Assembly: GCF_900114485.1 (NCBI RefSeq)
Contig: NZ_FOTF01000009.1
Span: 1 to 64,000, forward strand
DNA length: 64,000 bases
Reading direction: 5' to 3'
DNA from: Loktanella salsilacus
GTDB lineage: Bacteria > Pseudomonadota > Alphaproteobacteria > Rhodobacterales > Rhodobacteraceae
Positions 9,141-26,041 of this stretch are shown piece by piece. The notes below the pieces were generated by a model that made no database searches, was not told the DNA's origin, and saw only the letters and a list, made by a program, of their open reading frames with translations. The translations under genes and the position numbers were made by a program. The number at the start of each line of letters is the position of its first letter. Position 1 is the stretch's first letter.

Positions 9141-10360
9141 TGTATTCCTCCACGAGGGGTCACATGAAACTGATCCATCGTCAGATGCAGTTCGGTATCG
9201 GTATAGGGCATGTTTGCAATCGCGGCGTCGTCCAGTTCCAACCCCAGACCCGGCGCTTTGGACGGGATGACATAGCCGTTGTCCCATTCAATCGTGCCTT
9301 TGACCGCGCTCATGTAAGGCCCGTCAAAGGTGCCGATGCTTTCGAGGATCAAGAAGTTCGGCGAACAGGTGGCGATCTGGATATTGGCGGCGGCGACGAT
9401 GGGGCCGCAGTACAGGTGCGGCGCGATCTGGACCTGCCGGGTTTCGGCCATACCAGCGATTTTCTTCGCCTCTAGCAGGCCGCCGACGCGGCCAAGGTTC
9501 ATTTGCAGGATCGACGCCGCCCCGGTTTCCAGCAGGCGGGCGAATTCGTATTTGGTGCACAATCGCTCGCCCGCCGCCACGGGGATCGAGGTAAAGGCCG
9601 CGACACTGGCCATGTCGGCGGGGCTGTCGGGGGGCACGGGTTCTTCGAACCACAGCGGATCGAAAGGTTCCAGCGCACGGGCCATCCGCTTGGCCCCCGA
9701 CACGGTGAACTGACCATGCGTGCCAAGCAGCAGATCGGCGCGATCGCCAACCGCGGCGCGGATTTCGCGGCAGAACGCGACGCTTAGGCTGATATCCTCC
9801 AGCCGGGGTTGGTGGCCGTCAAAAATCGTATAGGGCCCTGCGGGGTCGAATTTCAGGGCAGTAAAGCCCTGATTGACCATATCCAGCGCCACCTGCGCTG
9901 CGATATGGGGGTCGTTGTAAGCGTTGGGCAAGGATGGGTCAGGATAGACGTCGCCGCTGGTGGGATAGATATAGGAATAGCTGCGCAGCTTGTCGTGCAC
10001 GCGCCCGCCCAGCAGTTCATAGACCGGCTTATCCGCCGCCTTGCCGACGATATCCCAGCAGGCCAACTCGAGCCCGCTGAACACGCCCATCACGCTGACA
10101 TCAGGGCGCTGGGTGAACCCGGCGCTATAGGCCTTGCGAAACAGCAGTTCGATGTGATGGGGATCGGCCCCTTCAAATTGCCGCGCGAACATATCCTGCG
10201 CCATCGCGCAGCAAACCTGCGGCCCAAAAGTCGCGTTGTAAATTTCGCCCACGCCAGTGATGCCGCAAGCCGTCGTCAGGCGCAAAAAGATGAAATAGCG
10301 CCCGCCATGACGCGGCGGCGGATTTCCAACGATAAACGTCTCTAACTTTTCGAGGCGCAT
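9137..10360 (-). CDS. Enolase superfamily (mandelate racemase/galactonate dehydratase-like) protein
   Basis: A 407-residue TIM-barrel enzyme similar to the DgoD/mandelate racemase subgroup, which abstracts a proton alpha to a carboxylate. Readable active-site pieces are ALKFDP (K170), WFEEP (E239/E240), AAGERL (E265), LQMNLGRVGG, APHLYCGP (H315) and ILESIG (E340). At the first metal-ligand position, where DgoD has DFHG, this protein reads GTHG (213-216), so the usual Asp is Gly while the His (H215) is kept. The ribosome site AAGGAGGGG precedes ATG 10360. It heads a coupled pair with the aldehyde dehydrogenase, next to a GMC oxidoreductase. Probably a sugar-acid dehydratase or cycloisomerase of unknown substrate. 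Confidence 0.85.
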   Translation of the reverse strand: MRLEKLETFIVGNPPPRHGGRYFIFLRLTTACGITGVGEIYNATFGPQVCCAMAQDMFARQFEGADPHHIELLFRKAYSAGFTQRPDVSVMGVFSGLELACWDIVGKAADKPVYELLGGRVHDKLRSYSYIYPTSGDVYPDPSLPNAYNDPHIAAQVALDMVNQGFTALKFDPAGPYTIFDGHQPRLEDISLSVAFCREIRAAVGDRADLLLGTHGQFTVSGAKRMARALEPFDPLWFEEPVPPDSPADMASVAAFTSIPVAAGERLCTKYEFARLLETGAASILQMNLGRVGGLLEAKKIAGMAETRQVQIAPHLYCGPIVAAANIQIATCSPNFLILESIGTFDGPYMSAVKGTIEWDNGYVIPSKAPGLGLELDDAAIANMPYTDTELHLTMDQFHVTPRGGIQ

Positions 10361-10387
10361 GTGCCCCTCCTTTTGAATGGCAGCAGG

Positions 10388-12031
10388 TTATCCTGCATCT
10401 TGTAAAATCAGATTAGCCGCACGCATGGCGAGCATCATCGTTGGCGCATTGGTATTACCCGACGTGATGTTCGGAAAGGCCGAGGCATCGGCAACCCGCA
10501 ATCCCGCCACGCCGTGCACCTGCAGGCGCGCATTCAGCACGGAGTCCGCCGCGCTTTGCCCCATCCGGCAGGTACAGGTGGGATGATACACCGTGCCTGC
10601 GCGGTTGCGAAATTCGGCCAGCAGCGCGTCGTCGTCCATGGTGTCGAACCCCTCAAGCTTGGACGCGGCCGTCACCGCTTGTAACGCCGGGGTGCGCGAC
10701 AAGGCGCGAATGATCCGGCTGGCGCGGACGGCGGCGTCGCAGTCTTCGTTCGTGGATAGCGAATTGGCCTGTATTGTTGGCGCATCGCGGTAGTCGGCAG
10801 AGTTAATCTGCACCGATCCCCGGCTGGTCGGACGGCATTGCTGCGCCGACAAAAGGTAGCCCGGATCGCGGTCCACAATCACCTTTCCTGCGGGGGTTAC
10901 CTCGTAAGACGCGGGGTTGCAGAACAGCTGGATGTCAGGCGCGTCAAGGTCCGCGTCCGACCGCACAAAGCCGCCGACTTGATTGACCGGCACCGCAAGC
11001 GGTCCGCGCCGCGTCATCACATACCGCGCCCCGGCAGCCATACGCCCAAGGGGGTGGCCAAGGATGTTATTCAGCGTCTTTTGCAAGGCGCGGAACTGGT
11101 AGGACACAGCCAGATGGTCCTGCAATCCCTGCCCCACCTGCGGCAGGTCGTGGCGCACTGTGATCCCTTGCGATTGCAGCAGCGCCGCTGGCCCGATGCC
11201 GGACAGTTGCAAAAGCTGCGGCGAATTGATGGCGCCCGCGCTTAGGATCACCTCTTTGCGGGCAACCACACGGTGCGTTTGGCCGCCGCGCGTATAACTC
11301 AGGCCGTCGACGCGGGTGCCAGAGAATTCCAGCTGCGTGACATGGGCGCGCGAAATAAGCGTCACATTGGGCCGCTTTAGCGCGGGGCGCAGAAACGCAT
11401 CGGCCGCCGACCAGCGCATCCCGCGTTTCACATTACTGCGGTAGAAACCGACGCCGTCAGCGCCCGGGGCGTTTATGTCATCAATATTGGCAAACCCTGC
11501 CTGCTGCGCAGCCGTCAAGAAGTTGCGCGAAAACGGGTTCATCTGATCGCTCAGGTTCTGCACCCAGACTGGTCCACCCTGCCCCGGTGCATCCGACTGC
11601 GTTTCCATCCCATCATAGATGCCGCGCACAGCGTCCCAGCCCCAGCCCTGCGCGCCCGCAGCGGCCCAATCGTCGAAATCCCGCGCCTGTCCGCGCACAT
11701 AGGCCATCGCGTTGATAGAGCTTGATCCGCCAATCACCTTGCCGCGCGGCCAATAGCTTTTGCGCCCGTTCAAGGCCGTGTCGGCGTCGGTGTGATAACC
11801 CCAGTTCAGCGCGGGCTTTGCGTAGTTGACGGCATAGCCGACGGGGATCTTGATCCAGAACTGGCGGTCGCTGCCGCCCGCCTCTAGCACCAGCACACGG
11901 TGCTTGCCGCTTGCGGACAGCCGGTCCGCCAGCACACAGCCTGCAGAGCCTGCGCCGACGATCACGAAATCGAACTCTTTGGCGGTCACGCCAGCCTGCC
12001 TCTTGACGGTTGAATACGTAGCACAAAGCAT
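10388..12031 (-). CDS. GMC family FAD-dependent oxidoreductase (choline dehydrogenase-like)
   Basis: A 547-residue flavoprotein that oxidises an alcohol. The FAD-binding motif DFVIVGAGSAGCVLADRL lies near the N-terminus with LEAGG after it. GMC signature 1 appears as WPRGKVIGGSSSINAMAYVRG-like sequence and signature 2 as GAINSPQLLQLSGIGP. The catalytic His region is YHPTCTCRMG, and the C-terminal NTNAPTMMLAMRAA closes the FAD site. ATG 12031 has AGAGGG upstream; GTG 11989 is an alternative that starts directly at the Rossmann strand. It ends 27 bp before the enolase-superfamily gene, so the two probably form one operon, under the divergent LysR regulator. Named choline or alcohol dehydrogenases share the fold; the substrate is unknown. 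Confidence 0.88.
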   Translation of the reverse strand: MLCATYSTVKRQAGVTAKEFDFVIVGAGSAGCVLADRLSASGKHRVLVLEAGGSDRQFWIKIPVGYAVNYAKPALNWGYHTDADTALNGRKSYWPRGKVIGGSSSINAMAYVRGQARDFDDWAAAGAQGWGWDAVRGIYDGMETQSDAPGQGGPVWVQNLSDQMNPFSRNFLTAAQQAGFANIDDINAPGADGVGFYRSNVKRGMRWSAADAFLRPALKRPNVTLISRAHVTQLEFSGTRVDGLSYTRGGQTHRVVARKEVILSAGAINSPQLLQLSGIGPAALLQSQGITVRHDLPQVGQGLQDHLAVSYQFRALQKTLNNILGHPLGRMAAGARYVMTRRGPLAVPVNQVGGFVRSDADLDAPDIQLFCNPASYEVTPAGKVIVDRDPGYLLSAQQCRPTSRGSVQINSADYRDAPTIQANSLSTNEDCDAAVRASRIIRALSRTPALQAVTAASKLEGFDTMDDDALLAEFRNRAGTVYHPTCTCRMGQSAADSVLNARLQVHGVAGLRVADASAFPNITSGNTNAPTMMLAMRAANLILQDAG

Positions 12032-12067
12032 TCGCGCCCTCTTTGCACAAGCAACGGCTATGACCGC

Positions 12068-12092
12068 TAAGCCCCCATAAATTTTAGGCTTA
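12068..12092. promoter_or_regulatory. Candidate LysR-type operator between GMC and lysR genes
   Basis: Perfect six-bp arms TAAGCC (12068-12073) and GGCTTA (12087-12092) are separated by 13 AT-rich bases (CCCATAAATTTTA). The site lies in the 120-bp divergent promoter between the GMC gene and the LysR gene. The geometry suits a LysR recognition site; no binding evidence exists. Confidence 0.4.
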
Positions 12093-12151
12093 TCGCGTTG
12101 CATGATTGGCGTAAGCTGCCCAAACAGTGCGGGACAGAACATGGACACAAT

Positions 12152-13033
12152 ATGCGCAGGTTGCCTCACGTCACATGGCTCCGCTCGTTCGAGGCGGCAG
12201 CGCGACACAGCTCTTTCAGCTCTGCCGCAGAAGAGCTGAACCTGACGCCCGCCGCTGTCAGCCAACAGATCCGGCTGCTGGAACAACATCTGGACATCCA
12301 GCTATTCCGCCGCCTTGCGAAAGGGGTGGAACTGACGGACCTTGGGCTTGCCTATGCGGTTCCGGTGCGCAAATCCTTTCAGGAAATGCAGGCGGCCACC
12401 GATGGTCTGTTTCGCGACCAACAGAAATCCGTCATTCGCCTGCGCTGCTCTATTTCCTTTGCCGCGCTGATCGTCGCCCCCCGACTGCGCGATTTCTGCG
12501 CCCTGCATCCGCAGATCGAGGTTGAGCTTTCGACGACAGTTTGGGCTGACCGGATGAACGGCGCACATATCGATCTGGATATCCGCTACGGCGAAGGCGG
12601 CTGGACAGAGCGTCACATCCACCCAATGCCCGTCGATAGCGCCGTCATCGTCTGCCATCCGGACTACGCGGCGACCTTGGGCCAGACCCCAATCGAGGCG
12701 GTGCTCGCCAAGGCCGCAATTGTGCAGATTGGCGGCTCGGAAACCGACTGGGACCGCCTTTTCCAAATTTGCGGCTTTCATGGCCCGCGGCCCGCGCATT
12801 GGATCAGGGCGGATTCATCTTTGATCGCCTTGCAAATCCTGTCGGCGGGCCACGGCTGCGCCATCATCAGCAAAAGCTTTGCCCGCCGGCATTTAGAGGA
12901 TGGGCGCCTTGTCGCGCCATTTGACCTGGAAATTCCGATGGGGGCGAACTTCAAATTGGTCGAACACGACGACGCGGCCGGACGCGCCGATGTGAAGACG
13001 CTTGTCGACTGGTTGCTGCGCCAGACGTTGTAA
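12152..13033 (+). CDS. LysR family transcriptional regulator (GcvA-like)
   Basis: A 293-residue regulator. The N-terminal helix-turn-helix reads RSFEAAARHSSFSSAAEELNLT with AVSQQIRLLEQHL, the pattern of the GcvA/AmpR branch of LysR proteins. A periplasmic-binding-protein-like effector domain follows from about residue 92. ATG 12152 starts directly before the MRRLPHVTWLRSF opening usual in this branch. It is divergent from the GMC/enolase/aldehyde-dehydrogenase operon and is the natural candidate to control it, sensing the pathway substrate or an intermediate. The effector is not predictable. Confidence 0.88.
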   Translation: MRRLPHVTWLRSFEAAARHSSFSSAAEELNLTPAAVSQQIRLLEQHLDIQLFRRLAKGVELTDLGLAYAVPVRKSFQEMQAATDGLFRDQQKSVIRLRCSISFAALIVAPRLRDFCALHPQIEVELSTTVWADRMNGAHIDLDIRYGEGGWTERHIHPMPVDSAVIVCHPDYAATLGQTPIEAVLAKAAIVQIGGSETDWDRLFQICGFHGPRPAHWIRADSSLIALQILSAGHGCAIISKSFARRHLEDGRLVAPFDLEIPMGANFKLVEHDDAAGRADVKTLVDWLLRQTL

Positions 13034-13312
13034 ATCCGTACCTGTGCAAGGCCGCAAAGATGCTACCGGAACGCAGCAGAAAATGCCCGGATGCGCGCCG
13101 CATTGACGCCGCGAGCCGAAAGTCCGTGTCGTTCTGGGCCGCCTAAGCCCATCGCCTGCCATCCGCGATATCCGGGTAGGGTTGCGTTTGCTGCGCCGCC
13201 GTTTCGCGGCCGCTGTAGAGCAAGCTGTTTTGGGCAACGGGTCGGTCTGTTCGTGCGGTGATGGCCACACTGCCCTGCAAAGACGTCATCGGCAACGGGC
13301 CTGACTCTCACA

Positions 13313-13831
13313 TTACTCTGGCACAACGACGCTTACGGTCGATGAAATGGGGATGTCGTCCACAGACCATTCGCTGTGATTATTGGCGTTCAACGTGACT
13401 TTGACTTGGCTTTCACCCGGCAAGAGTGCCGAAGCCGGCGGATTAAACCAATCGCTGTAAATCCGGGCGTATTTCACGTCGTTAATATAGATATGCGCAT
13501 GACCTTCGTTGTCCTGCGGGTCGCGATTGATATTCGCGGGTGTGAACTGGAAATTACGCGTCAAGATTTGAACATTGTACCCACCCATAGGATCAGGAAA
13601 GACCAGATAGGTTACGGTTGGCACCGGCGCATCCTGCGACACAGCCAACGGCGGGTGCTGATGCATCGCCGCCATTTCTGCCTGTGACATCGTCATGTCA
13701 GCAGATGCTGTGACCGCAGCCGTGTCCTGCATCACCACACCTTCCGGCATGGTGATGTGCACGGTTTGCAAGATGACGGTCAGGACCACGCCAATGGCCC
13801 CGCCAATCACAATATATGCGATCTTTTCCAA
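13313..13831 (-). CDS. Membrane-anchored periplasmic protein of unknown function in the YHYH cluster
   Basis: A 172-residue protein I do not recognise as a named family. Residues 5-24 form one transmembrane or uncleaved signal segment (IAYIVIGGAIGVVLTVILQT). A Met/His-rich linker (MTMSQAEMAAMHQHPP) follows, and then a beta-rich domain with GHAHIYINDVKYARIYSDWFN, LLPGESQVKVTLN and ANNHSEW. The GHAHxYIN and PGxxxVxVTLN pattern recalls DUF4399- or cupredoxin-like periplasmic domains and could bind a metal, which is a guess. It is the last gene of a five-gene run of exported proteins, 12 bp after the second YHYH gene. Confidence 0.7.
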   Translation of the reverse strand: MEKIAYIVIGGAIGVVLTVILQTVHITMPEGVVMQDTAAVTASADMTMSQAEMAAMHQHPPLAVSQDAPVPTVTYLVFPDPMGGYNVQILTRNFQFTPANINRDPQDNEGHAHIYINDVKYARIYSDWFNPPASALLPGESQVKVTLNANNHSEWSVDDIPISSTVSVVVPE

Positions 13832-13843
13832 GACCTAAGTCCC

Positions 13844-14851
13844 TTACTGACCTGGGCCAGGCATAGCGATGCGCAAAGCGTCACTGTCGATCCCAAGCGA
13901 TTGGGCAGCAGCGTCAAAATCTGGCGGCATGGTGTCGCCAAGTGCGTCGCGCAGCGCCGCCTCTTCAACGCCAAGCTCTTCTGCGATGGCAGCAAAATCA
14001 GGGCCGCCGCCGCCCATGTTGGCGGCCACTTCGACTTCGCCGTGGTAGCAATCGATCATATAAGGCGCTTCATCGGCCGTCAGGTGGTAGTGATAAATAC
14101 CGTCCGGGAATTCGGGCGTGACATCTACGTGGCCACTGCAGGCGTCCAGATCGTCGTTTGTGATGATAGCGCCCCCTTGCCCGTGGTTTCCGTAGACTGG
14201 GAAGCCGTCTTCGAGCACGCCGATCATCACCGAATGCTCATCCGCCTCATCAAGGGTGTCGGTGATACACACCGGAATGCCGTGATAATGATAGTCGGTG
14301 CCGCTGACCAAAGTGTGTCCGTTGCATTCATCCAAGAAGGCGACGTGGTCATGAATAACCTGATCGTCTTGGGCCACGACGGTACGTTCAAAGTTCTCGT
14401 AATCATTGAAGATTTGCGCGCCGGTAATCGCAACGCCGATGCGGCCAAGGGACGTTTCGGTCACCTCTTCTGTATACGCGGGCAAGGTCGTGATGGTCGT
14501 ATCAACCGGCGTTTCTTTGAAATAGGTCGCCGACTCTTCAACGTTGAAAAATTCGGTTGGTTTGTCGGCAAAGGGTTGGTCGCTGGGGTCGGTCGGGATC
14601 AGATACTTTTCCGCAAAACCATGGCTGGGCATGCCGTTCGATTCAAAGCGAAAGGTGTTTGCATCCGCGTCGATGGTGATCGTGACGTTGTCGCTCCAAT
14701 GCGCGGCCTGAACTGCTGCGGACGTATCGACAAGGCCAACGGCGGTCGTCGTGTCTTGCGCGTCCGCTGTGTCGGGCATTGTGACATTCAACGCAACGGC
14801 GGCTATGATCACGCTAAAGGCTGCGGTGGTATACAGGGTCTTATTTTTCAT
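13844..14851 (-). CDS. YHYH domain protein (second copy)
   Basis: A 335-residue exported protein of the YHYH family, whose function is unknown. A signal peptide covers about residues 1-31. Two similar halves are visible: C176 xGH...DYHYH (187-190)...C195, then C238 SGH...IYHYH (253-256)...APYMIDC268. GVLEDGFPVYG lies between the halves, a segment also found in the partner gene. The His/Cys spacing suggests two linked metal- or disulfide-bearing modules. The C-terminal 60 residues are acidic and helical (two DALG/LGID repeats). ATG 14851 has AAAGG upstream. It lies in the same direction as the PEBP and first YHYH genes. Confidence 0.85.
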   Translation of the reverse strand: MKNKTLYTTAAFSVIIAAVALNVTMPDTADAQDTTTAVGLVDTSAAVQAAHWSDNVTITIDADANTFRFESNGMPSHGFAEKYLIPTDPSDQPFADKPTEFFNVEESATYFKETPVDTTITTLPAYTEEVTETSLGRIGVAITGAQIFNDYENFERTVVAQDDQVIHDHVAFLDECNGHTLVSGTDYHYHGIPVCITDTLDEADEHSVMIGVLEDGFPVYGNHGQGGAIITNDDLDACSGHVDVTPEFPDGIYHYHLTADEAPYMIDCYHGEVEVAANMGGGGPDFAAIAEELGVEEAALRDALGDTMPPDFDAAAQSLGIDSDALRIAMPGPGQ

Positions 14852-15009
14852 GTTTCAACCTTTGTTTTGCGGTTCATCGATTGCGGTGCCGCACACACGC
14901 CCACCAAAGCCGCGACGGATTGCAGTGGTCAGCTCGGCCAAGATCGCTGCAATCTGTGCACGGATGTGTTTCAAGCGTCAGCCGCTACACCCTTCAGATA
15001 TCAATTGAC

Positions 15010-15657
15010 CTATTCGCTGATCGTTAAACGGCATAGGAGGGTGTTGTCCTGCTTCAGGTTTTCGCCCCAAACCAGCTTTGCGCTGTCGTCCCACGTGACT
15101 TCGTCATAGCCGTCCTTCGGGCCGACGTCGGCGGCGGAATGGACGATTGCGGCGGGCCAATCGCTGTCATCAAAATCCGGTGCGGTCCAGTCTGCGGGAA
15201 TGTCAGTAGCAACAAATTCGCAGGCCCCTTCTCCAGCAACAGGGTTCGCTTCATCGGCGCAAGACGGCTCTGCCGGCGCGAAGTGCACGACAAGGCACTT
15301 CATATCCGCGTCAGTCACGGCAAGCGTTTCGCCCGACACCGCGTCCTTGAACTGGGCAATCATGCCGCCGTCGCCCATTTGCTGGCGATCTGTGCCGATA
15401 TATTCCAGACCAGTATCGTTTTCCTTAAAGTCCTTTGCCTCAATCGCGATCACTGCTGGCAAATCGACCGAGAAGGTCGCCGTTTCTTTGTTGAAAGACC
15501 GCTCTGTCGTGATCGGCACAGAGTCTTCAAGGACCACCTCGCCGTTGGCAGACATAGAGAACCAATTGTCGACCCAGACGTCGGCGGTGATGTCGCGGGT
15601 TTCGGCCTGAGCGGCGCAGGCTGTCAGGGCTGCTACTGTCGCGAATATAAAGCGCAT
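15010..15657 (-). CDS. Secreted protein of unknown function in the YHYH cluster
   Basis: A 215-residue protein with a clear signal peptide (residues 1-18, ...TACAAQA/ETR). I do not recognise the family of the N-terminal part. It begins with a beta-rich stretch (DVWVDNWFSMSANGEVVLEDSVP). The C-terminal part carries WTAPDFDDSDWPAA, a pattern typical of galactose-binding-like jelly-roll domains, and ends LLCRLTISE. Cys at KCLVVHF, SCADEAN, ACEFV and LLCRL could form two disulfides. It lies 32 bp downstream of the PEBP-like gene, with a 158-bp gap before the second YHYH gene, so an internal promoter is possible. Export to the periplasm is inferred from the signal peptide. Confidence 0.75.
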   Translation of the reverse strand: MRFIFATVAALTACAAQAETRDITADVWVDNWFSMSANGEVVLEDSVPITTERSFNKETATFSVDLPAVIAIEAKDFKENDTGLEYIGTDRQQMGDGGMIAQFKDAVSGETLAVTDADMKCLVVHFAPAEPSCADEANPVAGEGACEFVATDIPADWTAPDFDDSDWPAAIVHSAADVGPKDGYDEVTWDDSAKLVWGENLKQDNTLLCRLTISE

Positions 15658-15689
15658 AATGTGTCCAATCGTGTCAAAGGTATCGTGAT

Positions 15690-16292
15690 TTAGTTCAGGA
15701 AAGTGATGGAGTCGCCGGCAAGGACATGACCCTTCAGCGCGGCCATAACATCAGTCCAACCGGTGCCGATATCGTCTTGTTCCGGCAGATCAGCCAGCGG
15801 CGCATCCAGGGCATAGACCCAGATCGTGTATTCATGCGTACCCGCACCAGATGGCGAACAGGGCGGCGTATAGCCGGTCGCGCGCAGGTCCTTATCGCTG
15901 CCCTCTACCCCCAACGACTCCGGATTGCCCCGCGCCACGCCGTCGGCACCTGCGGGAATATTCCAGACCAGCCAATAGTGGCTCGGCTCGTTTACACCGG
16001 GATAGGCACCATTCGGATAATGCTGCATGACGATGGCATAGGCCTGCGTATCTGCAGGCGCGTTTTCCCATGACAGCGGCGGCGATACACCGTCCCCGCC
16101 GCTGCGCGTGCAGCGCAGATCATCAGGCAAGGCCGCGCCGTCCACAAGCGCGGAACTGGATAAGGTGAACCTCGGCCCCTGTGGCGCAGTTGCCTCTGTG
16201 CCGGACTTTGGCGGCGGCGTTTGCTGCGCGGCGGCTGGCAATGCGGCCGTGCAGCACAGCAATGCGATGGCGAGTGCGGGAAAGCGGGTCAT
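15690..16292 (-). CDS. YbhB/YbcL (PEBP) family protein, exported
   Basis: A 200-residue phosphatidylethanolamine-binding-protein-like protein. A signal peptide runs to about residue 22 and is followed by the PEBP fold with LRCTRSGGDGVSPPLSWENAPADTQAYAIVM (conserved SPPL.W segment), HYWLVWNIP and YTPPCSPSGAGTHEYTIWVYALD. Bacterial members have no settled function; the conserved pocket binds anions or phospho-ligands. ATG 16292 overlaps the stop of the upstream YHYH gene as ATGA, so it is translationally coupled; GTG 16301 would add three residues. Coupling to YHYH indicates they act together in the periplasm. Confidence 0.88.
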   Translation of the reverse strand: MTRFPALAIALLCCTAALPAAAQQTPPPKSGTEATAPQGPRFTLSSSALVDGAALPDDLRCTRSGGDGVSPPLSWENAPADTQAYAIVMQHYPNGAYPGVNEPSHYWLVWNIPAGADGVARGNPESLGVEGSDKDLRATGYTPPCSPSGAGTHEYTIWVYALDAPLADLPEQDDIGTGWTDVMAALKGHVLAGDSITFLN

Positions 16293-17266
16293 TCGCGGCA
16301 CAGTTCCTGCGCGAACAATGCGCCGCCGTTCGTGACGGTGCGGGTCTCAAAATTGTAGCAATTCTCAGTCTCGGACGGCGCGTATTTGATGTAATAGTCG
16401 CCGCCCTGATAACTGTAGGTCATGGTCCGGGTGCCGTCGTGGTCCTGCACGAACACCAGATCGTCGACCCCGCCGCGCGGTGGCTGACCCGCCTCTGGCC
16501 CACGGCCGCCTTCTGCTGCGCCCAAGGGACGCACACGCGGCAGGGCGTCGATGTCGGGCACTTCGCCCATCAGGCACTGGATGATGTAGGGCGCGCCTTC
16601 GGACGTGTGGTAGCGATAGCCAAAGACATCGTCGGCCTGCCCGTTGCACACATCCAGAACACCTGCCGCGATAACGGTGCCGTCGGGATTGGTATCTGCG
16701 TAGATCGGAAATCCGTCAAATGCCCAGCCGATGATCGCATCCGGGCCCTTGTTCGCCATCTGGTCAATCATGCAGGTCGGTGCGGCATGATAGTGGTAAT
16801 CGTCGCCGCGCCCCGCATGACCGCCGCAGGCATCAAGCTGACCCGTCGCGACGGTGTCCAGATTGGCTTGATAAGTCGCCAGATCCGCTTGCGACATCTC
16901 TCCTCCAGCCGTGTAGTCATAGATCGGCACGCCGTTCACCGCGACACCAAGGGCGGCATCGCGGGTATGCGGTTCTGTCCCGCTCACGGGCGCCAATGTG
17001 ATGGGTGAGGCATAATTCACTGCAGGCACTGGCACCTGTTCGTTCGTGCCGATGATACCGGTCATCATCTCGTGGTCGGGATAGGTATCGCCTGCGATCA
17101 AAGCTTGATTGTCGGTGCAGGTCACCGTGACCACATCGTCAAAGCCCGCCTCGGCGACCGACTCCGTCACCGCCTCGCAGTGAAAGGAGTCTTCATGCGC
17201 TTGCCCTGTGGTGGCGTAAAGGCAGGCAAGCACGGCTAAGCCGGGCGGAAGAAGCAGATGACGCAT
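16289..17266 (-). CDS. YHYH domain protein (first copy)
   Basis: A 325-residue exported YHYH-family protein of unknown function. The signal peptide covers about residues 1-23 (TTGQA/HED). As in the second copy, two matching modules occur: C147 GGH...DYHYH (157-160)...C165 and C207 NGQ...YRYH (217-220)...APYIIQC231. Between them lies IIGWAFDGFPIYAD, equivalent to the second copy's VLEDGFPVYG. The tail has a Gly/Pro/Arg linker (residues 245-265) and a beta domain ending with ENCYNFE and AQELCRE. ATG 17266 has AAAAGG eight bases upstream and starts the gene run. The two copies differ strongly outside the motifs, so they are diverged paralogues. Confidence 0.87.
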   Translation of the reverse strand: MRHLLLPPGLAVLACLYATTGQAHEDSFHCEAVTESVAEAGFDDVVTVTCTDNQALIAGDTYPDHEMMTGIIGTNEQVPVPAVNYASPITLAPVSGTEPHTRDAALGVAVNGVPIYDYTAGGEMSQADLATYQANLDTVATGQLDACGGHAGRGDDYHYHAAPTCMIDQMANKGPDAIIGWAFDGFPIYADTNPDGTVIAAGVLDVCNGQADDVFGYRYHTSEGAPYIIQCLMGEVPDIDALPRVRPLGAAEGGRGPEAGQPPRGGVDDLVFVQDHDGTRTMTYSYQGGDYYIKYAPSETENCYNFETRTVTNGGALFAQELCRE

Positions 17267-17604
17267 GGGGATGCCTTTTATAGAATGACTGACGGTATGC
17301 GGGGTTATACGCGGCTGCTGAATTCTTCCGTCGGTTATTGAGCTATAAAAAATGACGGGGAGGGGTGCGCTTGACTGTTTTGGGCCGTTTGAGTTCCAAA
17401 AAATGCAGCCGGGGTGACCCTTTGCGAGCACCCGAAGGCCACACTTATCGCTCGACGGGAAAACGCCTGATCAAGCCTACCTCAATCAGCAGGTTCCAGA
17501 CGCGGCAGCGGCGGAATCAAGGTGGAAAATCACCCAAAAAGCGCCCGGAAACGGTTCACAAACCGAACCACCCTTATCCTAGGCACACAGGTGACCCCAG
17601 AGCA
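17267..17604. other. Intergenic region without a recognised gene
   Basis: This 338-bp gap separates the start of the YHYH run from the 3' end of the histidine kinase gene, both on the minus strand. It must hold the promoter for the YHYH genes; TATAA-like boxes near 17281 and 17310 (minus strand) have no good -35. An imperfect repeat GGTTC/GAACC lies near 17552-17568. I see no convincing coding sequence or RNA gene. Confidence 0.5.
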
Positions 17605-19506
17605 CTAAAACGTAAAGCGAGTGCGGCCCGGCATCGGTTTTGCAATAGGTCCACTGGTTTTAAGTGGAATACCGATTGGGTCCGCTATTTTCAGGACAGT
17701 AAACCAAAAAGTTGTTTTATCGCCGACGACACTGTCGAAACCTATCTGGCCACCGGACAGCTCGACAATTTGCTTTGAGATGACCAAGCCCAAACCTGTG
17801 CCGCCCCGTGACCGCGTATCCGCCTCTTTCGCCTGTGAGAACGGCGAGAAGATATGATCCCGGAAGGAAAGCGGGACGCCCTCTCCTTGGTTGGTTACAC
17901 AGACCTTGAGGAACTCACCGTGTTCTTCAGTATGAATTTTCACTTCGGTATTGGGATATGCAAATTTCGCAGCATTGGTGAGCAGGTTTGTCATGACTTG
18001 CTGAAACCTTCTGGGATCCATTTTCCCATACAGAGGCCTGTCATTTTCATATGATTTGAACGCAACATTGAAGTTGTCGGCGGTGTTTGTATTTGCCAGC
18101 ACAGCATCTTCAATCTGCGCCACTACGTCGTGGCACCCGATTGAAAGCTCCATCTGGTTTACCGAGAATTTTTCAAAGTCTAGTATGTCATTGATCAGCA
18201 CATAAAGTCGGTCACCGTTTTGATGCGCGATCGACAGCAGGCGCCGAACCTTTTCGGACAGGTTTTCGCTCTTCATCGCCATGAGCAACCGAAGAGAGCC
18301 AAGCACGGATGTCAGGGGCGTCCTGAGTTCGTGACTGATTGTCGCGACAAACTCGCCTTTCATGGCGGCAAGGCGACGTTGCTCCGTCATGTCCATCACT
18401 TGGCAAAGGATATGATTGGGTTTGCCAGCGGCATCGCGGACTAAACTGACAGTCACCTGGGCCCACATCGTAGAGCCATCCCGGCGAATATAGCGCCGAT
18501 CTTCAACATAATTGTCGATTTCGCCCGCAGATAATCTGGTGAATTGTTCAGAGGCCATCTGGATACTATCCGGGTGCGTAATATTTTCAGCTGGCCGGCT
18601 GATAAGCTCGTCTTCGGTATACCCAAGAGACTCGCACAATGCTTTGTTTACACGCCACCAATTGCCGTCGATCCCGAAGATAACATGCCCGATCGGAGAG
18701 TTTTCAAATGCGGAACGGAACTGCTCGTTGCTGCTACGCAAAGAGATTTCCATATTTTTGCGCTCAGTCACATCCCTCATAGAGCCAACGATTGACGTAA
18801 CTCTGCCAGAGCTGTCTTTGCTGATACCCGCGACGTTTACTTGCACCCAAAGCCATCTCGCACCATCTTTTGAAAGCAGCCGATATTCGCTTGATGCCTT
18901 TTCCTGCTCTCCATCCACACAAATCCGGATCGCTTCCTCTGCGACAAATAAATCGTCCGGATGGACGCGAGAGCGCCACTCTTCCAAGGTGTCGACAGGA
19001 ACGCCTTTTGGAAGTTCTAAGATCTTGCGCCACATGCCCGAAACAACAACGCGGTCTTCGATCGGGAAATACTCAAACACGCCAATCCGGGCTGAGTTTA
19101 TCGCAATGTTTGCTCGCTTAAGATCTGCGCTAGAAGCCTTTTCTGCCCTCAGCACTTCCGTCAGGTTTCGTAGGATCATTGCATGCTGCAATCCGTCTTC
19201 ATCTGACCAGGACGTCAAATGTATGGACAGGGGTACCTCGTCACCGGACTTCTTTCTTCCCATCATCAACTGAATGTTCGCATCAATCTCGGGCGGATGG
19301 ATGTAGCTATGAAGCGCAGCAACGGATTGAACATCCAGAACGTCTGAAACCGTCTGACCGATCAAGGTTTCATCGTAGCCAAATAGTTTGTCTGCTGCCG
19401 CATTGCTATGTGAAATTCTGCCATCCGCAGCGACTGTCATCACTGGCACCCTGATGTGCCTGAACGCTTTTAGGACTGGCTCGTTGGACATTAAATTTGC
19501 TTTCAC
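17605..19506 (-). CDS. PAS-domain sensor histidine kinase (soluble hybrid-less)
   Basis: A 633-residue signalling kinase without transmembrane segments, so it is cytoplasmic. Three PAS/PAC domains lie at roughly 10-120, 130-255 and 258-378; the second and third end with MRDVTERKN and VMDMTEQRR. The HisKA domain holds the phospho-accepting H392 in ATISHELRTPLTS. The HATPase domain has the N box QVMTNLLTNAAKFA, G1 VTNQGEGVP and G2 GGTGLGLVISKQIVE. There is no receiver domain and no response-regulator gene nearby, so it is an orphan kinase. The genes on both sides encode secreted proteins, and no functional link can be shown. The PAS domains show no obvious haem, FMN or Cys signature. Confidence 0.9.
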   Translation of the reverse strand: MKANLMSNEPVLKAFRHIRVPVMTVAADGRISHSNAAADKLFGYDETLIGQTVSDVLDVQSVAALHSYIHPPEIDANIQLMMGRKKSGDEVPLSIHLTSWSDEDGLQHAMILRNLTEVLRAEKASSADLKRANIAINSARIGVFEYFPIEDRVVVSGMWRKILELPKGVPVDTLEEWRSRVHPDDLFVAEEAIRICVDGEQEKASSEYRLLSKDGARWLWVQVNVAGISKDSSGRVTSIVGSMRDVTERKNMEISLRSSNEQFRSAFENSPIGHVIFGIDGNWWRVNKALCESLGYTEDELISRPAENITHPDSIQMASEQFTRLSAGEIDNYVEDRRYIRRDGSTMWAQVTVSLVRDAAGKPNHILCQVMDMTEQRRLAAMKGEFVATISHELRTPLTSVLGSLRLLMAMKSENLSEKVRRLLSIAHQNGDRLYVLINDILDFEKFSVNQMELSIGCHDVVAQIEDAVLANTNTADNFNVAFKSYENDRPLYGKMDPRRFQQVMTNLLTNAAKFAYPNTEVKIHTEEHGEFLKVCVTNQGEGVPLSFRDHIFSPFSQAKEADTRSRGGTGLGLVISKQIVELSGGQIGFDSVVGDKTTFWFTVLKIADPIGIPLKTSGPIAKPMPGRTRFTF

Positions 19507-19655
19507 TTCAAACGCTGCTGCGTCCGCACTTACTCGCTACAGTTTTTGTCAAATAGAAGGCAGCCTAAATTCTGATTGATGTGATCCAACGGCACAACTT
19601 TCGATAGGCTATCACATGGCCCCTTCGGTTCGCCGCAAAGAAGGCTAGGTTTCGG

Positions 19656-22600
19656 TTAAGGCGCAATACTGACGTTGAACGTCACTGACCCACTGGCACC
19701 AGGCGGATAAGTTCCACTGCATTCCCAGCGCAAGTCGCCTGCATAGCCGGGGCTGGCTGCACCCGATATCGCGTTGACGCATGTCACCCCGTCGCCGATG
19801 TCGATTGGGCTGGGGACAGCCGTCGCAAGTACGGTATACGGCGGTGTCGCATCGTAGACGATGATGTCTGACGAGGGCAAAGTGCCGGTATTTTCCAGAT
19901 AGATCCGGTATTCCAACACGTCTCCTACCCCGCCCCCGTTGGCGACACCTTCGGGGGTGCCTTGGGTGACATTGCGCACGGTCTTGGACAGCTTCAGCGC
20001 GCCTTGCGACGATTCCACCGTCACAAGGTCGGTGTTGCGATCCTCTTCGACGAGGCCAGTGCCGCCGTAGGTCGTATCCGCAACAATATCAACGCTATAG
20101 GATGCTCCTGGACCGGCGGCGGCAGAGGCTGAAACCCGCGCAACAAGGCAAAGCGTTGTCCCTGCCGAGATGGCGATCGGACCGATGATGGGCGTATCAG
20201 CCGTGCCGTCACAACCGTTATCTATAAACAACCCCGTGGCAAAGGCATCGGGGGTCGCGCTGGTCTGTGCATCAAGCGTAAAGAGCACGCTGCCGGTCGC
20301 ATCTGCGATATATTCATGGCGAAGCGACACCACTTGACCGGGGCGGATTGCGGCCTGTTGGTCAAGGTTCAGCCGTGCCGCGACGATCAGGCCAAAGTTC
20401 AAATCGGCGTAGGACGTGCCTGCCGCGGGCGTGAAGGTGAACGCCCCGTCGCGCGGGTCGGCGTTCACGATAGCGGGCAGGCCGAGTGCGCTTTCCGATA
20501 CGGTGCGCAGCAAGGCGTCAGGCACCACAGACACCGTGACGGTATTCGTGTAGCCATCAGGCAGGGTCAGGCTCCAGCTGCCGTCTGCCGCCACGGCGGG
20601 TGTGCCGATCACGGCGCCTGCGCTGTCTAGCACCTGAACCACGGCGCGGTCCGTGCCGACCTCTGTGCCGCCTTGGACGCCGTCAAAGGCTGTGGCCCCT
20701 GCCCCGTTGTCCAAAAACACCAGACCCGAGAGGGTTGCGCCGGTGCCGATGAACGCGACAGTGACGCTTGCCTCGTCATCGTCAGCCAAACCGTCCGATA
20801 GATCGTCAACCAAAGCGCCGACCGACGGGTCACTGTCGGGGTCGGACAACGAACTGGCGACGATTTCTGCGGTATTGGTATGCGCGCCGCTGTCCAACAT
20901 GGTGACGCGAATTGTAAGCACATGGTTACTGCCAGACGGCACATCGCCAAGCGTCCAGATTCCCGTACCCGTATCATAGGTATCCCCCTGCCCCGCCGCA
21001 TCGTCAGAGACATAGGCGAAACCCTTGGGCAGCAAATCACGCACCCGCACGTCGGCCGCAGTGCCCGGCCCATCATTGGACACGGTCAGGATGAAATCGA
21101 TCGCCTCGCCCGCTGTCGCTTGGGTGATTGGCACGCCATCTGACGCGCGCAGCGCGCTTTTGGTCAGCGACAGGTCGGCGGCCGTCGGTGCCGTGACAAA
21201 GCCAAAGTCTTGATCAGCCGTGTCGGCCCCCGTGGTGACGGATACGCCAGTTAGCGGATTGACCGTTGATAGGGTTAGGGCAGCGGGGATGTCGGGATCT
21301 GCGGTATCCACCTCGATCCGGTAGGTCAGCGTCGCGTTGACGGTGCCAAAGACATAGCTGCCGTCAGCAATCGTTTCCGCCGCGGATACCAGCGTATCGT
21401 CGGCGGGATCAGACGGCGTCCCATTGTCGTCATATAAGTTGATAGTGATGCCCGCGGGCAGCCCGGTATCGCCAGCGTTAAGCGTGCTGGACCCGTCAGA
21501 ATCCTGATAAAGTGTGCCAGAGATCGACCCGCTTTGGAAAACCGTCGACACGAACGGCCCCGGTGCGCGGCAGGATGCACCATCGTTGCCCTGATACGTC
21601 AGATTGCTGACGGTGCCCTGCACTTCGATGAAGTCGTATGTCGCGGGGCGATTGCCGTCAGACCCGACCTCGATCGCAAAGACTTGGCGGGACTGGTTAT
21701 CAAAGGCGTACATGAAACCGCTGCCATCGAACCAGACCGAGTCAATATCGATCGAGAAGTATCCGGCAGCCAGCGGGACGTTGGCAATCAGATCAATGGT
21801 AATAGGTCCCGGCACGCCATTGTTCGGATCAAAGGCATAAAGATTGCGCGCGGGGTCAAAGAAATAGATCAGGCCGTCACGCGGATTATAGGCCATATCA
21901 CGGCCATAGGGCGATCCTGCCGCAGCCGTCAAAACGCCCACCGCCACTGGATTTGTCGGATCGCTGATATCCAGCAGTTGATAGCGGCTGACATCGCTAC
22001 CCGACATATAGATCATGATGCCGTTTGGCAGGATGTCTGAATTGGTGTCCGGCGTTTCAATGGTCAACCCAGACACATCAGCCACTTCTTGCACAGCGCC
22101 AGCCGCGTTGATCCGCATCAACGTCCGAGGGCTTTGGCGCACACCGTAGATATAGCCGTCCAGTTCATTATAGCCCCAACCGGTCACGAGGTAGTTGCCG
22201 GTATAATTTGGCGGCAAAGCGGTCTGGCTTAGCGTATAAAGGCCGCCGCTTTCGCTGACTGTCAGCTGGCTGAGTGAAGGCAAGTTAAATGCTGTCTCCG
22301 TTGCAACCATGAAAAACGTCGATGAACAGGTCAGCGGCGCCCCCGGATTGGACAGGGTCACAAGGTAATCCTCGACCTCGCCGTCTAGGTTTATTCCGGC
22401 GAAAGGATCGGCCGCACCGCCGCTGGTAGTAGACCAACGCAAGCGCGCATAGGTGGCACCGTTACCGATATCTGCAGGCACAGGAATATTCAGCACAATC
22501 TGATTGTTAAAGGTGCCGTCAGTGTCGCCTGTCCCGCCATCACGGTAATCAATCGCCACATGCTCATCAGCCTCGAACGCGCCGTTCTGATCATAGTCGA

Positions 22601-24533
22601 TCCAAAGCTGCAGGTTCGTGATGCCGGGCACCAGCACTGGCAGCCCCAAATCGAATTGCGCACTCAGGGTCTCGTGGGTTCGCACTGTCAGCGGTACTGT
22701 CGTGCCTGCAACAATCTGCGGAAACGTCGTCGCGTCTTCGTCGTCGATGCCGTCGATATCATCGCCATCGGCGTTGGCAGAAAACTTTGTCGAGGTTTCA
22801 GTGTCCGGCTCTGCCGTACCAAGATAGATCAGCGGCACGACGACATGACGCGGATCGCCATAGCTGCCGGGCGCGTCGCCACGGTCAACCAAATCCGCAG
22901 CCGCGATGATGAAGGAGTAATCCTCAACCTCTCCGTCCAGCGTCGGGTCTGATATGCCTAGCCCAGCCTGCGATGCCCAGCGAAAGCGGCCAAAGGTCCG
23001 CGATGTGGTCGCATCATCCGGCACTGTGACGTTTATCTGGATTTGTCCGTCTCCAGCAGTCACATCATCGCCAGTTCCGTCATCGCGCAGGTCCGTCGCA
23101 AACCGTTCGACAGCCGTATTTTCAAACAACCCGTTGCCGTTGAAATCTATCCACGCCTGAAGGTATCCGTTGCCAGCGACACCTACGGTCAAGGTGACAA
23201 TTGAACCTTGCGTTAATAGCGGCAGCGTCACGCCGTCCTCGTCGTCACTGCCCGTCAGGTCGTCGCCAGTGGCCGATAGGTCCGACTGGGTAAAGGCCTC
23301 TGCATCGGGTGCCGTTGTTCCCAAATAAACTGTGGGGGCTGCGACGATCGCATGCTTGGGCGCCAAATAGGTGATGGGCGCATCGCCAAAATCAAAACCA
23401 AGCGCGTAAAGCAGTGTTAGCGTGTCCGGGTTAGACTGAAGGCGGTTGGGAAACGTCTGACCTATGGGGCCAATGCCTGCAGTGGCCGTCGCCGTTAGCC
23501 CGCCATTCAAAATATCAGCAGCCGTCACGGTGTATGCGGCTGTACAGGTAAATGTGCCGCCTGCAGGCACCTCTGTTGTGATTGCGGGACAGGTTACCGT
23601 GCCGACTGAGTCGTCCTGGATTACGATATCCTGCCCGACATTGAACGGCAGGGTGCCGTCGTTGGTGACGGTATAGGTGTAGTTGATCGTCGCCCCTAGC
23701 GCGACCAAATCGCCCGGGTTCGTCGTTTTGACCAAGGAAATGCTTTGACCGACCGCAAATTCAGTGTCTGCCAAAACACTCAAGCCCCGTGGGGCGGGAT
23801 CGTAAGGACCCACGTTTCGGACGTTTCCAATGGATTCGTCATAATAAAAGACTGCCCACGACGTGGCGTCAGGAAAAACAGACCGTAACGTGCCCGTGTC
23901 ATCATTGTTAGAGGTTGGTGAAACGGGGGGACCGTCTAGATAAATACACTGCGCTTGGTTAGCCCCGATGGGGCCCGTTGCCCCAGCGCCCGGTCCGGGC
24001 CCGATAATAAACGTCGGGGTCGCAGAAACGGCCGACAGGGCCGGATTACCATTGCTACCGAAAGCGGTGATAAAATCGCAGCGGTCATTGGGGGCATTGT
24101 TATCGCTGGCATCAAGGTCCGTGGTATCAATCTTTAGGCCGTCAACCGGAAGGGCCACACTGTTGGACGAAAAGCTAAGTTGGACCGCCGCCCATGAATC
24201 GCCGACCCGGCCCGAATTGGGCGGCGCATCAACGAGAAACGTCAGCGCCTCGATCCCGCCGCCGAAAATCGCGACATCATCAGGCGACACGATGCCGCCC
24301 CCCGCCACAAAGTTGCCCACGACGTCGATCCTTGTATCGACTTCAAAACCATACTGGTCTTTCAAGGTGAAGCTTAGCGGCGCGGTCGATCCCGCAGGCC
24401 AATCGATCTGCGCCCAATCAAGTGTGAAGTCGCCTGCGTAAAGCTTGGGCGTTGCCAGCATCGCGATTGCAACAACACTGCTGAATGATGCACGCATAAA
24501 CCGGGTTGCGACGGACTTGGGCACTTCATTCAC
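19656..24533 (-). CDS. Very large secreted modular protein (GEVED, DUF11, SdrD-B-like, DUF6923-like)
   Basis: A 1625-residue extracellular protein. The signal peptide covers about residues 1-33. Approximate order: a unique N-terminal domain; a DUF11-like repeat (ISLVKTTNPGDLV...); two GEVED domains, each with WIDFNGNG or WIDYDQNG and ending DGEVEDY; a DUF6923-like beta-propeller part (NGIMIYMSGSD, GLIYFFDPARNLYAFD); an SdrD-B/SpaA-like domain starting SGTLYQDSDGSSTLNAGD; a DUF11 domain (LSLTKSALRASDG...); a second SdrD-B-like part; and two more DUF11-type repeats to the end (SVTFNVSIAP). DxDxDG-type loops suggest calcium binding. No PEP-CTERM, LPXTG, autotransporter or type I repeat signal was seen at the C-terminus, so the mode of surface retention is unknown. 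Likely an adhesin or structural surface protein. Confidence 0.85.
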   Translation of the reverse strand: MNEVPKSVATRFMRASFSSVVAIAMLATPKLYAGDFTLDWAQIDWPAGSTAPLSFTLKDQYGFEVDTRIDVVGNFVAGGGIVSPDDVAIFGGGIEALTFLVDAPPNSGRVGDSWAAVQLSFSSNSVALPVDGLKIDTTDLDASDNNAPNDRCDFITAFGSNGNPALSAVSATPTFIIGPGPGAGATGPIGANQAQCIYLDGPPVSPTSNNDDTGTLRSVFPDATSWAVFYYDESIGNVRNVGPYDPAPRGLSVLADTEFAVGQSISLVKTTNPGDLVALGATINYTYTVTNDGTLPFNVGQDIVIQDDSVGTVTCPAITTEVPAGGTFTCTAAYTVTAADILNGGLTATATAGIGPIGQTFPNRLQSNPDTLTLLYALGFDFGDAPITYLAPKHAIVAAPTVYLGTTAPDAEAFTQSDLSATGDDLTGSDDEDGVTLPLLTQGSIVTLTVGVAGNGYLQAWIDFNGNGLFENTAVERFATDLRDDGTGDDVTAGDGQIQINVTVPDDATTSRTFGRFRWASQAGLGISDPTLDGEVEDYSFIIAAADLVDRGDAPGSYGDPRHVVVPLIYLGTAEPDTETSTKFSANADGDDIDGIDDEDATTFPQIVAGTTVPLTVRTHETLSAQFDLGLPVLVPGITNLQLWIDYDQNGAFEADEHVAIDYRDGGTGDTDGTFNNQIVLNIPVPADIGNGATYARLRWSTTSGGAADPFAGINLDGEVEDYLVTLSNPGAPLTCSSTFFMVATETAFNLPSLSQLTVSESGGLYTLSQTALPPNYTGNYLVTGWGYNELDGYIYGVRQSPRTLMRINAAGAVQEVADVSGLTIETPDTNSDILPNGIMIYMSGSDVSRYQLLDISDPTNPVAVGVLTAAAGSPYGRDMAYNPRDGLIYFFDPARNLYAFDPNNGVPGPITIDLIANVPLAAGYFSIDIDSVWFDGSGFMYAFDNQSRQVFAIEVGSDGNRPATYDFIEVQGTVSNLTYQGNDGASCRAPGPFVSTVFQSGSISGTLYQDSDGSSTLNAGDTGLPAGITINLYDDNGTPSDPADDTLVSAAETIADGSYVFGTVNATLTYRIEVDTADPDIPAALTLSTVNPLTGVSVTTGADTADQDFGFVTAPTAADLSLTKSALRASDGVPITQATAGEAIDFILTVSNDGPGTAADVRVRDLLPKGFAYVSDDAAGQGDTYDTGTGIWTLGDVPSGSNHVLTIRVTMLDSGAHTNTAEIVASSLSDPDSDPSVGALVDDLSDGLADDDEASVTVAFIGTGATLSGLVFLDNGAGATAFDGVQGGTEVGTDRAVVQVLDSAGAVIGTPAVAADGSWSLTLPDGYTNTVTVSVVPDALLRTVSESALGLPAIVNADPRDGAFTFTPAAGTSYADLNFGLIVAARLNLDQQAAIRPGQVVSLRHEYIADATGSVLFTLDAQTSATPDAFATGLFIDNGCDGTADTPIIGPIAISAGTTLCLVARVSASAAAGPGASYSVDIVADTTYGGTGLVEEDRNTDLVTVESSQGALKLSKTVRNVTQGTPEGVANGGGVGDVLEYRIYLENTGTLPSSDIIVYDATPPYTVLATAVPSPIDIGDGVTCVNAISGAASPGYAGDLRWECSGTYPPGASGSVTFNVSIAP

Positions 24534-25048
24534 CTATTACTTAGACACGTGGTCAGCCGTTTGGGATGCGGTGGTGACGACCGGACCCAAACACTTCAAT
24601 GCGCCAGCCCTAAGCGTCCCCCGACAATAAACGATCCCGTCCACTGTCGCAGGCTGCGCCGCGTCAAGCAAAAGCGAAGAGAGGCAGAAACATCGCCGTC
24701 TTGGATAGGGTGCTATGCTTTCGAATAGCGCGAGGCTGATCGGTGCATGGCGGATCGCGGCGCAAGCAATGTTTTTCGGCGGTGGCGCTGCCGCGTGAAC
24801 CGGATGACGAATTGGTGCCAACAAATCAAAACGTCAGGCGATCTGCGTCAGGGAACAGCCTTCACCCGCCGAATACGGCCTTGTCTTCATCGCTCACGAA
24901 AGCGGATGCTTAAAAATTAGGCTTAATGCCTAGCATTGGTCAAACGCGCCGGTTTTCAAAGCGACTGCGGCAAAAATGAATTGACTCGGCGTAGGGTCAT
25001 GATGAACCAATAGGTAATTGGTTCACATTTGCCGCAAGGACGCCTCTT
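24534..25048. other. Divergent intergenic region without a recognised gene
   Basis: This 515-bp region lies between the start of the large secreted protein (minus) and the peptide-transport operon (plus). It carries the operator-like inverted repeat described separately at 25003-25025, and a small one, TAGGC-TTAAT-GCCTA, at 24918-24932. A -35-like TTGACT is at 24981. Short open frames here have no family signature and are judged to be chance. Confidence 0.55.
25003..25025. promoter_or_regulatory. Inverted-repeat operator candidate upstream of the peptide ABC operon
   Basis: Nine-bp perfect arms TGAACCAAT (25003-25011) and ATTGGTTCA (25017-25025) flank a five-base centre AGGTA. The site ends 23 bp before the proposed CTG start at 25049. 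The arms and spacing suit a dimeric regulator, most simply the GntR protein encoded at the end of this operon (33093-33776). That pairing is inference. Confidence 0.55.
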
Positions 25049-26041
25049 CTGTCTCAGCATCTTCCCCTTTTGTCGCTGCGCGACTTCAGCCTGAAATTCA
25101 AAGGGCAGTCGGCCTGCGTTGTCGAAAATGTTGACCTGACCGTCGCAGAAGGAGAGATCCTGTGCATCGTCGGCGAGTCCGGTTGCGGCAAGAGCGTGAC
25201 CGCGATGGCGCTGATGGGACTGCTGCCGCAAGACGCCGCCAAAATTCCCAGCGGCACTATGGTTTTCAACGGTAAAACGATAGATATGACGTGTGAACGT
25301 ATTCCCGCGACCATGCGCGGCGGGGACGTGGCGATGATCTTTCAAGAGCCGATGACCTCGCTCAATCCCGCTTTTCGGATCGGCGATCAGATCGCCGAAG
25401 CGGTGCAGCAGCACAAGGGGTGCACCCGTGCGCAGGGACGCGCCCGTGCGCTGGAAATGTTGATCCGGGTGGGACTCCCCTCTCCTGAACAGCGGCTGGA
25501 TCAATATCCGCACCAATTGTCAGGTGGTCAGCGCCAACGCGTTATGATTGCCATGGCCCTTGCCAATGACCCCAAGCTTTTGATCGCAGACGAGCCGACA
25601 ACCGCGCTTGATGTCACGATCCAAGCGCAAATTTTGGAACTGATCCGCGATTTGCAGCGCGACACGGGCATGGGCACGATCATGATTACCCATGACCTTG
25701 GTGTCGTCGCTGAAATCGCCGACACGGTCGCTGTTATGTATGGCGGTCAAGTGGTCGAGCGCGGCCCAATGGCCGAAGTGTTTGAGGATCCCCAGCACCC
25801 CTACACCATCGGCCTTATGGACTCGGTCCCGCGGTTATCGGGCCCCCGCGCCCGGCTCACGACGATCGAAGGTACAGTGCCGTCGATTGATACGATGCCG
25901 CAAGGTTGCCGGTTCCGGACACGCTGCCCCTTTGCGGCCCCGCTCTGCAATGCGCGTCCCGCGCTTGCAAACGTCAGCGAAACCCACGCGGTGGCATGCC
26001 ATTTCGCCCCCTTGGAACAGAACCTGAAGGTGGCGCAATGA
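25049..26041 (+). CDS. Peptide/glutathione-type ABC transporter ATPase (DppD/GsiA-like)
   Basis: A 330-residue ATPase powering import of peptides or related compounds. Walker [10 protein letters not shown]-loop [10 protein letters not shown], signature LSGGQRQR, Walker [13 protein letters not shown] and H-loop ITHD are complete. The C-terminal oligopeptide domain carries the Cys pattern [14 protein letters not shown]...C, expected for a [4Fe-4S]-type motif. No ATG or GTG lies in frame before the conserved core. CTG 25049 gives [14 protein letters not shown] and has AAGGA (25036-25040) at the right distance; TTG 25070 is the alternative with no ribosome site. The next gene overlaps as ATGA. 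It is probably under control of the inverted repeat at 25003-25025. Confidence 0.88.

Follow-up and report, generated by a model that had tools for sequence, protein, structure and literature searches.

Introduction

Five consecutive genes on the minus strand of Loktanella salsilacus (Rhodobacteraceae), all coding for exported or membrane-anchored proteins, raise the question of whether they belong to one system and, if so, what it does. They lie in the first 64,000 nucleotides of contig NZ_FOTF01000009.1 (assembly GCF_900114485.1), a stretch referred to here as the window, and are labelled A to E in this analysis: a YHYH protein (A), a member of the PEBP family (B), an orphan (C), a second YHYH protein (D) and a membrane-anchored protein rich in His and Met (E). 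A preliminary description of the locus, made from the sequence alone, had proposed a single system for the handling of a metal or ligand, built around functionally uncharacterised YHYH proteins. In the present study the five genes are found to be two modules, A/B/C and D/E, which usually stand at separate loci. The cluster is nevertheless no chance run of reading frames, since the same five genes recur in the same order on two L. salsilacus plasmids, and it looks like a real, undescribed envelope system.

Results

Association of C with YHYH proteins and PEBP

The family was sampled with 394 genomes from 393 genera, of which 65 carried a YHYH protein and 31 carried C, both counts including the genome of the window. 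With this genome excluded, YHYH was present in 25 of the 30 genomes with C and in 39 of the 363 without it (p=1.6e-17; kinship is ignored in this and all other p-values). Examination of 31 C loci from 29 genomes (L080-L110, a weak match in G295 being left out) placed a YHYH gene no more than 1.5 kb from C in 15, always on the same strand, as against none of 46 control loci, which were loci of E relatives chosen for convenience (26 Cbt and 20 PCu(A)C loci, see below). Most commonly C is followed by A, frequently with an overlap. The order A-B-C occurs in the window, on the two L. salsilacus plasmids and in L166 and L162, the order C-A-B in L084; L080 carries a fragment of B, and on plasmid CP049030 C adjoins A without B.

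A phylum-wide search of 334 genomes recovered C in six, three of them outside the family. One of these, a genome of another family, encodes a single protein of 727 residues, composed of PEBP (50-180), YHYH (277-377 by Pfam) and C at its end, with an N-terminus that, judged by eye, resembles a lipoprotein signal. As the three are one polypeptide in this genome, A, B and C may well act as one assembly. At the other two loci outside the family (L262, L263) no YHYH was found within the 17-19 kb examined, and a scan of viral contigs with the fusion protein gave no relative. Overall, a joint function of C with YHYH is well supported.

The fusion gene shares one strand with genes for an exported protein of 169 residues, a two-component pair and a TonB siderophore-type receptor (L261:2011-10009). 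The receptor reached 270.2 bits against TIGR01783 (cut-off 223.5), and the pair was closest to the BaeSR models, below their cut-offs.

Identity of C

Neither C nor E matched any Pfam family at E 0.1. Among 27 relatives of C, weak matches at E ≤0.05 were obtained to Bac_rhamnosid_N (11), CBM_5_12 (five) and GH2_N (one), and C is possibly a galactose-binding-like jelly roll. It is in these sub-threshold matches that it resembles the sugar-binding N-domains of GH2 and rhamnosidase enzymes, from which it differs by lacking a catalytic domain and by staying below the cut-off. A C profile run against the PDB had antithrombin (E 0.0024) and a rhamnosidase (E 0.021) as top matches, which were not taken as evidence. 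The RefSeq label 'PEBP family protein' for C was rejected, because PF01161 matched none of the 27 family members at E 0.05; our guess is that the label stems from fusions like the PEBP-YHYH-C protein.

The D/E module and its link to C

A contig scan with D, whose search patterns were taken from D itself and favour close kin, gave 15 loci; in 13 of these the identity was at least 60%. E lies directly downstream of D in 11 of the 12 loci having downstream sequence (in L152 it matches in two pieces); Roseovarius nubinhibens (L155) has D without E, and the contig of L158 ends at D. For 12 of these loci C was looked for at genome level, in 11 genomes (L161 belongs to the same genome as L154). It was found in nine, namely every genome with E next to D, and not in G430 (L155) or G432 (L158), which corresponds to a binomial p of 5.5e-9 at the base rate of 31/394, or of 5.8e-7 for seven of nine genomes once the two belonging to the family sample are excluded. 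In eight of the nine D-E genomes carrying C, A stands beside C.

The family sample, own genome aside, contains D at 59% identity or more in six genomes. E adjoins D in G151, G158 and G242, and C is present in each of them; among the D genomes lacking E (G180, G187, G315), only G180 carries C, in a distant form. C thus occurs in four of six genomes with D versus 26 of 387 others (p=3.8e-4), or in three of six if only strong C matches are counted (p=0.003), and within these small numbers it accompanies the D-E pair rather than D alone. The D-E label requires nine changes on the tree of C, compared with a mean of 11.0 after shuffling and with 67 of 500 shuffles as low; D-E carriers are dispersed over the tree, which speaks against descent as one inherited block. 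All five genes stand together once more in the Ascidiaceihabitans metagenome-assembled genome ANT-1 (L162), on one strand in the order D-E-A-B-C, with A split in two frames. That D and E work together with C is fairly supported.

A few neighbours of D-E pairs were recorded in passing: a further, convergent YHYH gene adjoining the pair in L152 (7203-7640), an alginate lyase with an F5/8 type C domain adjoining it on the opposite strand in L113 (4797-7055), and cytochrome c and multicopper oxidase genes 3-5 kb downstream of it in L114 (11466-14434).

The neighbourhood survey found the genes scattered, so that the single cluster of the preliminary description fails as it was stated: there is no fixed five-gene unit. 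A weaker form of the idea persists in the co-occurrence, the PEBP-YHYH-C fusion and the rearranged five-gene cluster.

The cluster within L. salsilacus

Two L. salsilacus plasmids of 0.5-0.6 Mb bear the five genes in identical order at 93-98.5% identity, both with a PAS kinase and a GEVED gene upstream and a LysR gene downstream. YHYH was matched in none of eight genomes of the same genus searched, and the cluster is hence accessory. In strain 1A07893 an IS3 element is annotated at the expected position of the GMC oxidoreductase (the gene table is incomplete), and in genome G012 a PAS hybrid histidine kinase (L101:5886-7526) lies just upstream of a C-A pair, a parallel to the PAS kinase upstream of the cluster in the window.

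Protein E and its relatives

In the structural model of E (predicted local distance difference test, pLDDT, 86.7) a helix (residues 2-23) precedes a sandwich that is predicted well. Foldseek against the PDB returned a CARDB domain as best match (E 0.013), followed by other Ig/FnIII-like domains, none at or below 0.001. Searches with E gave matches in 74 of the 394 family genomes, from which two sets were drawn. The first, the Cbt set (L124-L149, n=26), comprises the best-scoring loci after the own locus and three D-E loci; CbtB and CbtA adjoin the E relative in 24 of them, and DUF1636 was matched in 17 as well. The proteins encoded after CbtA share 28-38% identity with E. A cobalamin riboswitch was detected in 19 of 20 sources (three plasmids and 17 Cbt loci), L135 being the one without. 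The second set consists of 20 lower-scoring, longer relatives, 19 of which match PCu(A)C at E ≤0.05, with the E domain as their C-terminal part. H111, H113 and H152 of E are invariant among relatives, and the His set GH.H...H is invariant in operon and fused relatives alike.

Cobalamin-riboswitch CbtB-CbtA operons regularly contain, as their third gene, one for a His-rich anchored protein that belongs to no Pfam family, and DUF1636 often comes next (L124-L149, L076-L078); the same Ig-like domain is C-terminal in many PCu(A)C copper chaperones (L235-L254, L079). E is akin to the post-CbtA proteins and shares their invariant His; the window differs from such operons in that E follows a YHYH gene and has no CbtA, CbtB, DUF1636 or riboswitch beside it. 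Likewise, PCu(A)C proteins carry the E domain at their C-terminal end, whereas in E of the window no PCu(A)C domain (PF04314) was found. Cobalt as the substrate of CbtAB is itself a prediction in the accessible text of PMC4771312 and PMC2667541; in that of PMC2773004, overexpression of CbtAB gave no growth increase, and in that of PMC13108547 a cbtB knock-down improved growth, for which the authors invoke cobalt excess. From this kinship it is a fair inference that E handles metal, and its family, for which no name was found in the literature searched, is a candidate new periplasmic metal-binding family.

Conservation and fold of the YHYH proteins

Ten columns are invariant across 51 YHYH proteins including A and D, and D145, H150, Y157, H158, H160 and D184 (A numbering) are invariant in both the 51-row and a 49-row alignment. 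Phage YHYH domains have been predicted to possess a Zn site and to be tail-associated Zn-dependent hydrolases (PMC7824862, accessible part), and the invariant His and Asp of A and D are probably the Zn-site residues meant there. The proteins were consequently not as uncharacterised as first described, a prediction being already at hand; it still holds that no tested function, and no paper on this cluster, turned up in a literature search whose coverage lacked most subscription journals. A and D resemble the phage tail proteins of the accessible part of PMC7824862 in scoring above the Pfam cut-off with invariant His and Asp. They differ in that they are secreted, stand alone and have a PEBP, a jelly-roll-like protein and an anchored metal-type protein as partners; no tail or lectin gene lies next to them in the window. 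B resembles PEBP/YbhB-YbcL proteins (PF01161) in exceeding the Pfam and TIGR00481 cut-offs and differs in its export, in its operon with YHYH and in the fusion to YHYH and C that exists in one genome.

The model of A (pLDDT 76.6) has strands at residues 267-323. Compared with viral models it gave one match, to a protein of 1480 residues (E 5.6e-8), and a sequence search found no solved relative of the YHYH proteins. A phage origin of A was rejected, as the search of phage records with A gave no match. Among 50,697 phage records, 406 are matched by a YHYH protein of a different subtype (L013), and every one of these bears the name cyanophage, Synechococcus, Prochlorococcus or marine; YHYH has also been reported in diatom transcripts (PMC11992049, accessible part). 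In the own genome, a third YHYH gene immediately follows those of an RND pump and its adaptor, in the same orientation (L119:7719-13273, contig C50); the RND pump as a general YHYH partner was rejected, as it was met in only three of 43 loci.

Gene layout in the window

All five minus-strand reading frames of the preliminary description were recovered (Table 1), and its YHYH and PEBP assignments are borne out by scores above the Pfam cut-offs. So is the coupling of A and B, the start of B (ATG at 16292) overlapping the stop of A within ATGA; the remaining gaps measure 32 bp (B/C), 158 bp (C/D) and 12 bp (D/E). Export agrees with small-residue cleavage-type sites after a hydrophobic N-terminal stretch in A-D, read by eye and with simple hydropathy, and with the N-terminal helix in the model of E.

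Table 1. Genes of the cluster and its neighbours in the window; bits are profile scores, set against the cut-off of the profile.
Feature	Coordinates	Strand	Profile evidence
A, exported YHYH protein, 325 residues, beta-rich C-terminal extension	16289-17266	minus	PF14240 74.6 bits (cut-off 25)
B, exported PEBP, YbhB/YbcL-type	15690-16301	minus	PF01161 79.8 bits (cut-off 24); TIGR00481 61.8 bits (cut-off 57.75)
C, exported orphan, 215 residues	15010-15657	minus	no Pfam match
D, second exported YHYH protein, 335 residues, two YHYH motifs	13844-14851	minus	PF14240 86.2 bits (cut-off 25)
E, membrane-anchored His/Met-rich protein, one helix and Ig/FnIII-like sandwich, TTG start	13313-13831	minus	
PAS histidine kinase, neighbour upstream of the cluster	17605-19506	minus	Pfam PAS, HisKA, HATPase_c
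Giant surface-type protein, GEVED and DUF11 domains, upstream of the cluster	19656-24533		
GMC oxidoreductase, divergent from the LysR gene	10388-13033		

The YHYH motifs of D lie at residues 187 and 253, and E contains six His and eight Met in 172 residues. DPDxP is the canonical ligand-site motif of PEBP; it seems altered in B, as read by eye without an alignment. An anti-phage defence system was rejected, none of the PADLOC families matching any of the five proteins at E 0.01. Promoter-like sites numbered four (2.2 expected) and terminator-like sites one (4.5 expected) in a scan that was not used as evidence, and the GC content is 0.56-0.63 across the cluster and 0.51-0.54 across 17-20 kb, which includes the upstream kinase.

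Discussion

We tentatively favour the reading, at a probability of about 0.42, that the two modules belong to one accessory envelope system, in which E would be a metal chaperone for YHYH metalloproteins, and these would work together with B and C. Module 1 would be a secreted YHYH metalloprotein, a PEBP and a jelly-roll-like partner in one assembly, and module 2 the second YHYH protein with the membrane-anchored metal-binding protein. At the inner membrane's outer face, E would take up a divalent transition metal via its conserved GHxHxY...H residues and pass it to the His/Asp site of D, possibly also to that of A. The target of the loaded YHYH proteins, most likely metal-dependent hydrolases, would be a ligand in the envelope or outside the cell, bound with the help of B and C. 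We infer that E binds metal, the direction in which metal flows, that the YHYH proteins hold metal and that they are enzymes; the loading of YHYH by E and the hydrolysis are conjecture. The metal part of the originally proposed metal or ligand handling has gained ground, through the kin of E in CbtAB/riboswitch operons and PCu(A)C fusions and through the invariant His and Asp of YHYH. It is unlikely that the picture holds in its most detailed form, namely an anchored chaperone of an unnamed Ig-like metal family that loads secreted YHYH metalloenzymes working as a surface PEBP-YHYH-jelly-roll complex.

Several observations speak against this reading. Metal binding by any member remains a prediction, and the model of A matches no solved PDB structure (best E 0.77), which leaves the hydrolase fold without structural support. 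In five of the 31 genomes with C no YHYH was matched anywhere, 16 of the 31 C loci have no YHYH nearby, and none is annotated next to a C relative of 28% identity on a Vibrio plasmid. Within the family sample, BLAST detected B at two of 12 A-C loci, one of the two matches being the fragment in L080, and B is thus an occasional member. The D-E pair is not universal, since three of the six family-sample D genomes (G180, G187, G315) gave no E match, and G434 (same place as G151) has the D gene as its sole YHYH match. In the window, finally, E has neither CbtA, CbtB nor PCu(A)C beside it, its neighbours being YHYH and LysR, and no cobalamin riboswitch reached the gathering score in positions 10000-26000, for which reason riboswitch control of the cluster was rejected.

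The main rival assumes metal uptake or sequestration without catalysis, in which the YHYH proteins and their partners would bind a metal or metal chelate, extracellularly or in the periplasm, and hand it to E and onwards to a transporter. The cobalamin-riboswitch CbtBA operons of the E relatives would suit it, the strand shared by the fusion gene with the TonB receptor and the BaeSR-like pair suits metal uptake equally well, and the own genome's third YHYH gene follows an RND pump and adaptor. However, no transporter is found within the cluster of the window, the receptor neighbourhood comes from a single genome and the RND genes from three of 43 loci, and we consider uptake possible, though rather doubtful.

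The published hydrolase prediction for phage YHYH (PMC7824862, accessible part), the weak resemblance of C to sugar-binding N-domains and the 406 phage records matched by the other YHYH subtype would also fit a remodelling of envelope glycan or peptidoglycan by YHYH hydrolases aimed by C, with E as a mere anchor. The three invariant His of E and the occurrence of its relatives beside CbtBA and in PCu(A)C proteins would then go unexplained, and the phage search with A itself found nothing; we regard remodelling as improbable. Pure coincidence, five unrelated exported genes adjoining by chance, would agree with modules that usually lie apart and with the absence of these genes from most family-sample genomes, but is scarcely credible beside the co-occurrence statistics, the fusion and a second cluster with another gene order.

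For the YHYH proteins, which occur in bacteria, in numerous cyanophage records and, according to PMC11992049, in diatom transcripts, the two modules provide partners, a connection to metal handling and, in the fusion, a natural protein of three domains, and with them the question of YHYH function becomes testable in a marine bacterium.

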